In this document: positions 33,867 to 38,587 of the stretch, piece after piece
How positions within the stretch are numbered: the stretch's first letter is position 1
Layout: every line of letters begins with the position of its first letter
Source: Alphaproteobacteria bacterium
Lineage (GTDB): Bacteria; Pseudomonadota; Alphaproteobacteria; TMED109
DNA: 59,860 nucleotides
NCBI GenBank assembly: GCA_022819905.1
Contig: JAJEGJ010000078.1
Span: 1-59,860 of the forward strand
Reading direction: 5' to 3'
The notes under the pieces: generated by a model
What the model was told of the DNA's origin: nothing
The model's database searches: none
What the model saw: the letters and a program-made list of their open reading frames with translations, nothing else
Program-made: the position numbers and the translations under genes

Positions 33867-34229
33867 CTAGTGGGCGAGTTCGTATTCGCGCACGAGCAAG
33901 TCCGCGGGGAGTTTCCATTTTGACGACAACGCACGGATCATCGGAAGCGTCAGGCGACGGCGGCGGCTGAGCACTTTCGAAGCCCGAGGCTGCGACCCGA
34001 CGACGGCAGCGAGGTCCTTCTGCCCATAGCCGCGGGCCTCCATCACATGCCTAATCGAGGCGACGGGATCGGGTGCGTCTACTCGCCAGTGAGCTGCCTC
34101 ATAGGATTCGACCAGAACGATCAGCACTTCAAGTGCGTCCGCTTCCGGACTGCCGGGCGCTGCTCCCATCAGTCCGTCGATCGTCTCCAGCGCGGCGTCA
34201 TATTCGGCTTCGCTTCGGATCGGCTTCAT
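33867..34229 (-). CDS. higA: HigA-type antitoxin
   Basis: A 120-residue antitoxin. The N-terminal part (MKPIRSEAEYDAALETIDGL, then EADALEVLIVLVESYEAAH) is the toxin-neutralising half and the C-terminal helix-turn-helix (VMEARGYGQKDLAAVVGSQP, RASKVLSRRRRLTLPMIRAL) binds DNA. This order is typical of HigA partners of HigB2-like toxins. The ATG at 34229 lies 16 bases after the toxin stop, toxin first, as in most higBA operons. Confidence 0.87.
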   Translation of the reverse strand: MKPIRSEAEYDAALETIDGLMGAAPGSPEADALEVLIVLVESYEAAHWRVDAPDPVASIRHVMEARGYGQKDLAAVVGSQPRASKVLSRRRRLTLPMIRALSSKWKLPADLLVREYELAH

Positions 34230-34245
34230 CTTCACCCTGGCCCCC

Positions 34246-34539
34246 TTAAGCGTTTGAGGCGTCGATTTGGTCGTAGTCGGCATGCGTCCCTACGAACCGC
34301 ACGAAGCCGATTCGGTGTCTGAAGTCGAACCGAACAATGAGTCGATACCTGTTCCCGGCAATATTGAAGACGATTCTGTGATTACCGACGACGCTCGCAT
34401 TCCCGTAAACGGCTTTGACGTCTGCCGGGGAAGCCCAGTCGGCCGCCGTTGCAATTGCGGGCCATGACCGTAACGGTTGCTCAGCCCGGCGTTCTTTCTC
34501 CCAGTAGGTGCGGAGAGTCCGTTTCGCAACGATCCGCAC
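34246..34539 (-). CDS. higB: HigB-type mRNA interferase toxin
   Basis: A 97-residue toxin of the HigB family: VRIVAKRTLRTYWEKERRAE, WASPADVKAVYGNASVVGNH, RIVFNIAGNRYRLIVRFDF, and the terminal VRFVGTHADYDQIDA. It cleaves mRNA on the ribosome. The GTG at 34539 aligns with the family start; the longer frame upstream is unrelated. No internal stop or frameshift is seen. Confidence 0.87.
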   Translation of the reverse strand: MRIVAKRTLRTYWEKERRAEQPLRSWPAIATAADWASPADVKAVYGNASVVGNHRIVFNIAGNRYRLIVRFDFRHRIGFVRFVGTHADYDQIDASNA

Positions 34540-34645
34540 GGTTGCAGCATAAAATTCCCGGAATGGGATGACAGCATCTGAGAGCTGGTGCAGCTGGGCT
34601 CGATGATCCTGAAAGAACTCGGAGTACGCCGACCGTCCACTGCAA

Positions 34646-35938
34646 TCAGGCACCGAACCGGGGTGCCACGACGGCGGCACGACCAGCGAAGCGGGCGTCG
34701 ACACCAGCACGCCCCTCGATCCGGAGCGCCTCGTTCCACTTCGCCATGCGCTCGGAACGGGCGAAGGAACCGACCTTCATCTGGCCGGCCTGCCAGCCGA
34801 TCGCCAGGTGGGTGACCGACACGTCCTCGGTCTCCCCCGACCGCGCCGACACGATGGTGCCCCAGCCCGCGGCCCGGGCCGCGTCGAGCGCCTCCCGCGA
34901 CCGGGTAACGGTGCCCGCCTGATTGGGCTTCACGAGCAGTGCCGTGGCGGCGCGCGCCTCGGCGGCAGCGGCCGTGCGTCTGGCGTCGGTCACCAGGAAA
35001 TCGTCACCCACGACCTGGGCCCGCCCATCGACCGCCGCCACGAACCGGACCATTCCATCCCCGTCGTCTTCCGCCAGCGGATCCTCGATCGAGATCACGG
35101 GGAACTCCCGGCACCAGCCGAGCAGCTCGTCCGCGAAGGCACCGGGCTCCAGCTCACGGTCCTCGAGGCGCAGCCGGTACCGGCCGTTTTCGTGCAGCTG
35201 GTTGGCCGCGATATCCAGCGACAGCGCCATGTCGGTGCCCGGGCGGAGGCCGGCAGCCTCGATGGACCGGACGGCGAACGCGAGCGCTTCCCGGTTGGAA
35301 TCGAAGACGGGCCAGTAGCCGCCTTCATCCGCCACGCCCGCAAGCTGACCGGCGTCCGCCAGCAGCTGACCGGCGGCCCGGTACGTCTCACCGGTGATCC
35401 GGAGAGCCTCCGCGAACGAGGACGCGCCGACCGGCATCACCATGATGTCCTGCAGGTCGAGGGCCCGTGCGGCATGGGCGCCGCCGCCCAGCAGCTGGAT
35501 TTCGGGTAACGGCAGCAGCGGCGCGCTGTCGCCCGCCAGCAGTTCCCAGCGCGCGAGTCCATGGGCCCGGGCAGCAGCGTCGAGGACGGCCAGCGACACC
35601 GCCGTCGAGGTGTTGCCGCCGATCTTCGCGAACCCCTCGCCGCCCAGCTCCGCGAGGATCCGGTCTACGGCCGGCTGGTCGGCAGCGTCCACGCCCATGA
35701 GCGCATCGCGCACCGGTCCGTTGAGCGCCCGGAGCGCACCTGCCACGTCCCTGCCACCGAGCGCCGTGCCGCCGTCACGTAGGTCGATCGCCTCGCCGCC
35801 CCCGCGGCTGGCGCCCGCCGGCGCGGCGGCCCGACCCCTGGTGCCACCCGCCAGGATCACGTCGGCCTCCACGGTCGGATGACCACGTGAATCCCAGATG
35901 CGGCGTCCCTGCACGCCGCGAATGGTCGTGTCAGGCAT
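34646..35938 (-). CDS. Divergent enolase-family protein
   Basis: A 430-residue protein of enolase length and order. Kept relative to E. coli enolase: Ser44 (GAS), His155, Glu205 (DEGG), metal ligands Asp242, Glu285 and Asp312, base Lys337, Arg366-Ser367 and Lys388. Changed: the mobile loop reads AGASRG instead of SGASTG, the active-site Glu168 equivalent is Asp164, and the His370 equivalent is Ala365 (SARSGETED). These changes argue for a related substrate or a paralogue, rather than ordinary 2-phosphoglycerate chemistry. The start overlaps the upstream kinase gene by 8 bases, so the two are coupled. Confidence 0.82.
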   Translation of the reverse strand: MPDTTIRGVQGRRIWDSRGHPTVEADVILAGGTRGRAAAPAGASRGGGEAIDLRDGGTALGGRDVAGALRALNGPVRDALMGVDAADQPAVDRILAELGGEGFAKIGGNTSTAVSLAVLDAAARAHGLARWELLAGDSAPLLPLPEIQLLGGGAHAARALDLQDIMVMPVGASSFAEALRITGETYRAAGQLLADAGQLAGVADEGGYWPVFDSNREALAFAVRSIEAAGLRPGTDMALSLDIAANQLHENGRYRLRLEDRELEPGAFADELLGWCREFPVISIEDPLAEDDGDGMVRFVAAVDGRAQVVGDDFLVTDARRTAAAAEARAATALLVKPNQAGTVTRSREALDAARAAGWGTIVSARSGETEDVSVTHLAIGWQAGQMKVGSFARSERMAKWNEALRIEGRAGVDARFAGRAAVVAPRFGA

Positions 35939-36926
35939 CGAGGTTCTCCAGGAGACCGGCCCAGTCTGCGAAGAGCGAGGGCAGGGTCGACGCGGGCCGG
36001 ACCAGATGCGCGCGGGCGAAGGCGCGCACCGGGGCCCGCAACGGCTCGGTATCGAGGTACTCGACCGGCGAGCGCCCGTCGACGCGACCGAGCATCAGGC
36101 CGGGCAGCAGCCGCGCCACGCGCGTCTCGAGCGCGGCCGGTTCTTCCCAGGCCACCCGCCGGAGATAGGCCTCGCGCAGGGCAGCCGCACTGGCGAGCAG
36201 CACCGTCCCGCGGCCCGGAAACAGCCGGCCCTTGAGCAGCAGGTGATTCAGGCAGAACGCGAGGTCGAAGGCCGGATCGCCGGCGGTGGCGCATTCGGCA
36301 TCGAGAAACACGGGCGCACCCCCGGGAGACCGCAGCAGGTTCTTCGGACTGGCGTCGCCGTGGATCAGTGTCGGCGCCCGCCCGGCCAGATCGCCGGCGA
36401 TCGCTTCGAGGGGCACGCGAAGATCAATATTCCGCTCGATCGGATGCAGCAGGTATGGCTCGATGCGGATGTCGTGGAATGTCGCGGCATTGGGAAACCC
36501 CGCTGGCACGTCGCGGTCCGCCGCGGCCGCCGCATGCAGGCGTCCCAGCGTCTCCCCGACCCGAGCGGCAAACGCCGCATCCACGTGGCCGGCCATCAGC
36601 TCCGCCTTCCACAGCGGGTACCGGTCGGGCGCGAGGTACTCCATGACGAGGAGGCCCGCCCCACGGTCCTCCGCCAGCAGCGCCGGCGCCGACCCCGGCA
36701 CCGCCCGGCCGGCCCAGCGGAGCCAGTCGGCCTCCGCCGCATTGCGCCCGACCGGCGCGTACCAGTCCGCCTCGGTGCGGAGTTTCGCGAGGGCCTGCTT
36801 GATGCAGACGGTGCGGTCGGGAAACACCACTTTCCAGATGTCGGACGATACGCCCCCGGTCAGCGGGGACACCTTGAGCGGTTCTGCTCCGCGGCCCAGG
36901 TCAAGCTCCGCGAGGACGCGCAGCAA
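35931..36926 (-). CDS. Aminoglycoside-phosphotransferase-fold small-molecule kinase
   Basis: A ~331-residue kinase of the APH/choline-kinase/methylthioribose-kinase fold. Seen: a Gly-containing nucleotide loop (SPLTGGVSSDIWKVVF), catalytic LIHGDASPKNLL, and metal-binding FLDAECATAGDPAFDLAF. HDIRIEPYLL resembles methylthioribose kinase more than aminoglycoside enzymes. The start is probably TTG at 36926. It is coupled to the enolase-like gene, suggesting it phosphorylates a hydroxy acid or sugar acid that the second enzyme then dehydrates. No resistance role is implied. Confidence 0.78.
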   Translation of the reverse strand: MLRVLAELDLGRGAEPLKVSPLTGGVSSDIWKVVFPDRTVCIKQALAKLRTEADWYAPVGRNAAEADWLRWAGRAVPGSAPALLAEDRGAGLLVMEYLAPDRYPLWKAELMAGHVDAAFAARVGETLGRLHAAAAADRDVPAGFPNAATFHDIRIEPYLLHPIERNIDLRVPLEAIAGDLAGRAPTLIHGDASPKNLLRSPGGAPVFLDAECATAGDPAFDLAFCLNHLLLKGRLFPGRGTVLLASAAALREAYLRRVAWEEPAALETRVARLLPGLMLGRVDGRSPVEYLDTEPLRAPVRAFARAHLVRPASTLPSLFADWAGLLENLDA

Positions 36927-36961: not shown

Positions 36962-37276
36962 CTACCCGTCGTCTTGGCGCGGGTGCACCAGCACCGGCTT
37001 CATGTCGCGGAAGTCATCGGCCCGGACGAGGACTTCCGTCGGCCGGGAATCCGGCGCGTCCGAGCGCGGCCGAAAACTGACCCGGTAGGCGGGATTGCCC
37101 TCGTGCATGATCGGGGTGATCTCGACGAGGACGGAATCCAGCTCCTGGTCGACCCATTCACGGATCATGTAGTCACGCCCCACCGAGTGCACGAAGGAGG
37201 CGTCGGACGGCGCGGGTGCCAGGAGCTCGAAGCTCATCGTGATTGCCGCAGCCGACAGAAACAAGCGAAGTACCAT
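36962..37276 (-). CDS. Small secreted hypothetical protein (104 aa)
   Basis: The ATG at 37276 gives a signal peptide (LRLFLSAAAITMSFELLAPA) and a ~80-residue mature domain (YMIREWVDQELDSVLVEITP, YRVSFRPRSDAP, EVLVRADDFRDMKPVLVHPR). The family is unknown. It lies upstream of the kinase on the same strand with a 35-base gap, so it may belong to that transcript. It is divergent from the aminotransferase gene. Confidence 0.6.
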   Translation of the reverse strand: MVLRLFLSAAAITMSFELLAPAPSDASFVHSVGRDYMIREWVDQELDSVLVEITPIMHEGNPAYRVSFRPRSDAPDSRPTEVLVRADDFRDMKPVLVHPRQDDG

Positions 37277-37291
37277 ACGATTTCCAGGTGA

Positions 37292-38587
<1,296 letters not shown>

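Follow-up and report, generated by a model that had tools for sequence, protein, structure and literature searches.

In addition to their glycolytic enolase, many soil and marine bacteria carry a second one with a uniformly rebuilt leaving-group pocket, which is almost always linked to the gene of one particular sugar-kinase-like protein, and the two probably form a previously undescribed two-step route to phosphoenolpyruvate (PEP) or a related compound. Enolase proper is usually regarded as a single-function glycolytic family. Within the sequences currently filed as glycolytic enolase there is a large, deep-branching sister clade with changes at the leaving-group site and one kinase companion across several phyla, and this partnership looks obligate. 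With the pair, a proposed new entry to PEP or an analogue of it becomes open to a concrete assay with two enzymes. The open-access papers searched, on 2-phospho acids besides 2-PG and on L-glycerate routes as well as on kinase-enolase pairs, contained no description of the pair.

The gene pair and its distribution

The window, which is the whole stretch of 59,860 nucleotides analyzed here, belongs to a 3.6 Mb assembly that is 96% complete. Its minus strand encodes the APH-superfamily kinase P0002 (35931..36926; 331 aa, TTG start; Pfam APH PF01636) followed by the enolase paralogue P0001 (34646..35938; 430 aa, ATG start; Pfam Enolase_N and Enolase_C), a member of what we term the 'SARSGE' subfamily. 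The 3' end of the kinase and the start of the enolase share 8 bases (35931..35938), an overlap that suggests translational coupling. Both reading frames and their overlap agree with the initial annotation of this DNA, and alignment of P0001 to the yeast active-site residues likewise bore out its statements that the catalytic Lys and the metal ligands are kept, that Glu168 and the histidine it called His370 (yeast His373) are replaced by Asp and Ala (Asp164 and Ala365 in P0001), and that the mobile loop is altered (NGG-HA to GGGAHA). The AF2 model of P0001 (pLDDT 89.9) superimposes on solved enolases with a TM of 0.93. Since P0001 reaches 391 bits against TIGR01060 eno, the NCBI glycolytic enolase model with a cut-off of 300, automatic annotation would label it eno; relatives of the paralogue are named as glycolytic enolase in RefSeq, and metabolic models therefore probably misassign these paralogues.

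In a scan of public genomes, at least 80 loci matched P0001 at 51-64% identity, spanning Alpha-, Beta- and Gammaproteobacteria, Streptomyces, one planctomycete and one actinobacterial MAG. Among the matches listed, the kinase was encoded within 10 kb of the paralogue in 76 of 80 loci; in 59 it immediately preceded the paralogue in the same orientation, with overlapping frames in about 48 of these 59 adjacent pairs, a count that includes enolase starts projected from the alignment. The kinase was located up to about 9 kb away in 17 of the listed loci (Rhizobium, Burkholderiaceae, Ramlibacter and Streptomyces) and was missing from four, two of which (L036 and L100) start at a contig edge. Closer to the window genome, 18 of 61 relatives possess the kinase and 17 of these also the variant enolase; 16 of the 17 pairs are adjacent on one contig and one is split over two contig ends. 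The pair, whose conservation the initial annotation had proposed to check, is thus both conserved and linked. The single exception among the relatives is G031, in which the kinase (L181:9182-10150) is an orphan and no variant enolase is encoded. About 0.8-2.7 kb downstream of it are two ORFs identified by eye, a converging one that may encode a sugar-dehydrogenase-like protein and one for an MFS-like transporter.

The paralogue is an additional enolase wherever this was tested. The window genome encodes a canonical enolase at C74:81338-82606, as the initial annotation had suggested confirming, which scores above P0001 and is 45% identical to it, and a canonical enolase turned up in each of 19 more genomes searched that carry the pair (414-460 bits, versus 275-317 bits for the paralogue). 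These copies rule out P0001 as the sole enolase of its genome. A class III glycerate 2-kinase is also encoded in the window genome (C47; PF13660 match), and the idea that the pair makes up for a missing glycerate kinase and enolase was rejected for this genome, where both are present elsewhere.

Active-site residues of the enolase subfamily and its kinase

The tree comprised 131 enolases, 103 with Ala at the His373 position and 28 canonical ones, mostly from the same organisms. All 103 Ala-bearing sequences formed a monophyletic clade (support 0.92, stem length 0.50). Every one of them, P0001 included, keeps (yeast numbers) the metal ligands Asp246, Glu295 and Asp320, the phosphate ligands Ser39, His159, Arg374 and Ser375, as well as Gln167, Glu211, Lys345 and Lys396; Glu211 and Lys345 correspond to Glu205 and Lys337 of P0001. 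Asp for Glu168 and Ala for His373 were found in 103/103 members of the subfamily versus 0/28 canonical enolases, and Gln148 and Gly151 (each for Asn), Trp209 (for Ala) and Val389 (for Thr) were equally invariant in the subfamily. The same substitutions in all 103 members, combined with a linked kinase at 76 of the 80 loci among the matches listed, place the pattern beyond chance. Compared with canonical enolase (EC 4.2.1.11), the paralogue thus has the same fold, about 40-47% identity (P0001 to bacterial canonical enolases), the same metal, phosphate and carboxylate ligands and the same Lys345 and Glu211, but differs in these six positions and in its kinase linkage.

In yeast enolase, His373 has been described as holding a water molecule together with Glu168 and Glu211, and mutating His373 lowers activity. 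Pocket contacts were read from the published complex of E. coli enolase with SF2312 and not from the AF2 model of P0001 (PMC6863902). In this structure, Glu167, Lys392 and His369 contact the hydroxyl that takes the place of the C3-OH of 2-PG. The carboxylate mimic is held by Mg1, Gln166, Asp316 and Lys392, whereas the Ala40 amide, His158, Arg370, Ser371 and Mg2 bind the phosphonate (PMC6863902). Two of the three C3-OH contacts, Glu168 and His373, are therefore the substituted positions of the subfamily, while the third, Lys396, is kept, and the side-chain contacts to carboxylate and phosphate are retained. This distribution implies that the subfamily would still accept a 2-phospho carboxylate and abstract its C2 proton, and that it would differ at C3, where a different substituent, a different leaving group or the opposite enantiomer might be accommodated. 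With the machinery for carboxylate, phosphate and C2-H kept and the C3-OH contacts changed, we infer that a 2-phospho acid enters and a PEP-like product leaves.

In the kinase alignment (n=75; 74 sequences from the scan loci plus P0002), about 70 positions were conserved at ≥95%, including Lys43, the HGDxSPKN motif (189-196) and Asp209, and the catalytic residues were invariant in 75/75, except for the first His of HGD (74/75). Judging from these sequences, the family looks like an active kinase and a single orthologous group. The model of P0002 (pLDDT 95) matched 5-methylthioribose kinase (MtnK) structures best (Z 35-37 over 307-324 residues), followed by PsiK (Z 32) and LxmK (25), after which the scores fell to about 20 or less. 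P0002 has the APH catalytic motifs in common with MtnK, its nearest solved fold, but is 16-20% identical to it, shorter, accompanied by other partner genes and, at 41.6 bits, far from the cut-off of 275 for TIGR01767 (MTR kinase). Its substrate may plausibly be a small molecule resembling a sugar. P0002 falls outside the known glycerate 2-kinase families, with no match to class II (PF02595) or class III (DUF4147, PF13660), and PF02595 (class II Gly_kinase) had no match anywhere in the window genome.

Gene neighbourhoods and the proposed route

When neighbouring genes were clustered, 33 of the 80 loci among the matches listed had a D-2-hydroxyacid dehydrogenase of one family beside the pair; FAH-family hydrolases occurred in 25 of the loci and LacI regulators in 17. 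The Roseibium and Paracoccus plasmid order was LacI, kinase, enolase, FAH hydrolase, SDRs and sugar ABC transporter; the nearest curated relatives were 2,4-didehydro-3-deoxy-L-rhamnonate hydrolase for the Roseibium FAH protein and D-xylose 1-dehydrogenase for one Paracoccus SDR, both below cut-off. These clusters resemble a non-phosphorylative L-rhamnonate-type pathway in their SDRs, related FAH hydrolase and sugar transporters, but contain the kinase and the enolase paralogue in place of an annotated sugar-acid dehydratase, none of which is present within the 18-19 genes of these stretches. Since the L038 cluster already contains a galactarate-dehydratase-like gene near the pair, the pair is not everywhere simply the missing sugar-acid dehydratase. 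Four Rhizobium plasmids (L105, L121, L122 and L123) carry genes for FAH, CMD, LacI, ABC transporter, cupin, HpaD-like VOC dioxygenase, alcohol dehydrogenase, 2-hydroxyacid dehydrogenase (CtBP-like) and PEP carboxylase (ppc) along with the kinase and the paralogue. This LacI-linked catabolic cluster is partly common to Paraburkholderia and Streptomyces.

Other neighbours included an HpcH/HpaI aldolase (L066), a methylisocitrate-lyase-like gene (L053) and L-lactate-dehydrogenase-like FMN enzymes (L059 and L133). Four loci from streamlined, AT-rich genomes of the same family (L133, L136, L183 and L184) keep their synteny across genera and include a divergent FMN enzyme resembling L-lactate dehydrogenase; in three of them, judged by eye, a short bactofilin-like ORF precedes the kinase. 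Many loci have the pair alone amid unrelated neighbours, and the pathway context is derived from a minority of loci. Where present, the neighbours, among them transporters for sugars or sugar acids, point to catabolism of sugar-acid-like compounds, with no one substrate fitting every context. A phosphatase or pyruvate-kinase-like gene to consume a substituted PEP was not recognised in the clusters, and the distant 2-hydroxyacid dehydrogenase and FAH homologues of the window genome (C82 and C35) had uninformative neighbourhoods with poor gene calls.

From the residue pattern and these associations, the reading we favour, at about even odds, is that kinase and paralogue form a module acting in two steps on a 2-hydroxy acid that differs from D-glycerate. 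In such a module, the MTR-kinase-like enzyme would transfer phosphate from ATP to the C2 hydroxyl of a (2R)-2-hydroxy acid with a leaving group at C3, which is most likely a sugar-acid-type 2,3-dihydroxy acid. The paralogue would then hold the carboxylate on two Mg ions and bind the phosphate in the usual enolase manner, Lys337 (Lys345) would take the C2 proton, and Glu205 (Glu211) would help to expel the C3 group in the reshaped pocket, giving PEP or a 3-substituted PEP by dehydration or another beta-elimination. In many relatives the D-2-hydroxyacid dehydrogenase would probably supply the (2R)-hydroxy acid by reducing the matching 2-keto acid, and the FAH-family hydrolases or aldolases may act on the same class of compound. 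The general proposal of the initial annotation, a kinase making a phospho-hydroxy acid that the second enzyme converts to a PEP-like product, is upheld in outline by the residue pattern and the evolutionary evidence; the role that it gave to an upstream secreted protein is not. The more specific version, in which a 2-hydroxy sugar acid is phosphorylated at C2 by the MTR-kinase-like enzyme and dehydrated by the paralogue to a 3-substituted phosphoenolpyruvate, is put forward tentatively, as less probable than not. Such a route would be widespread though annotated as glycolytic enolase, and we know of neither this phosphorylative dehydration nor its intermediate in catabolism. The sugar-acid context would fit a larger substrate of this kind, whereas the plasmid-borne ppc in Rhizobium fits PEP as the product and hence points to a C3 compound better than to a larger sugar acid.

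The same ppc gene, together with the adjoining D-2-hydroxyacid dehydrogenase, would also suit a plain duplication, in which the kinase, as an atypical D-glycerate 2-kinase, and the paralogue, as a second 2-PG dehydratase, would form their own branch from glycerate to PEP, supplied by a hydroxypyruvate reductase and emptied by PEP carboxylase, as in that segment of the serine cycle. The order of reactions, 2-phosphorylation followed by dehydration to PEP, would match that of class III glycerate 2-kinase and enolase in the serine cycle or glycerate assimilation, and the TIGR01060 score of P0001 agrees with it. P0002 belongs to another family, however, the window genome already has the canonical versions of both enzymes, and the loss of His373 and Glu168 throughout the subfamily is unexpected with an unchanged substrate, so that we consider this explanation rather unlikely. 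Somewhat less probable still is a route through L-glycerate, derived from L-hexonates via FAH cleavage, with the kinase forming 2-phospho-L-glycerate and the paralogue eliminating or epimerising the opposite enantiomer. A CH2OH group in swapped position could account for the substitutions on the C3-OH side, 2,4-didehydro-3-deoxy-L-rhamnonate hydrolase is the best or second-best curated match of the FAH hydrolases (below cut-off), and genes for L-specific FMN-dependent 2-hydroxyacid dehydrogenases occur near the pair in two lineages; yet the commoner partner is of the D-isomer-specific class, and the residues serving the D isomer, Lys345 and Glu211, do not vary in the subfamily.

A leaving group other than hydroxide, such as an amine, sulfite or an ether oxygen, would yield PEP from a 3-substituted 2-phospholactate. 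Among the named ligand contacts only the residues at the leaving OH have changed, and the Rhizobium ppc would again be accounted for, but the fully invariant changes include no new positively charged residue and no sulfite-, ammonia- or ether-specific genes were recognised among the annotated neighbours, which makes this reading improbable. The loss of two active-site side chains might even be taken to indicate a non-catalytic paralogue, regulatory or moonlighting and tied to the kinase; given the invariance of the remaining catalytic, metal and ligand residues across several phyla and the linkage to catabolic genes, we regard this as very improbable indeed.

Other genes of the window

The small predicted secreted protein upstream of the pair (36962-37381), which the initial annotation had tentatively included in the route, is 78-99% identical within the genus, has no Pfam or NCBIfam match and was absent beside every other copy of the pair in the loci examined; with conservation confined to the genus, it was rejected as a partner. 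The TRAP transporter, acyl-CoA ligase and aminotransferase of the window were dropped as well, their synteny being kept within the genus only; the dctM of the window is 41% identical to that of L087 and the dctP match is weak.

A HigBA-like toxin-antitoxin pair (33867-34710) lies directly downstream of the enolase. Its toxin matches HigB_toxin (PF09907), the antitoxin candidate has no Pfam match, and the toxin ORF as listed overlaps the 3' end of the enolase by 65 bases. The toxin-antitoxin pair was matched in two of four genus relatives examined but not in the other two, and may therefore be a recent insertion.
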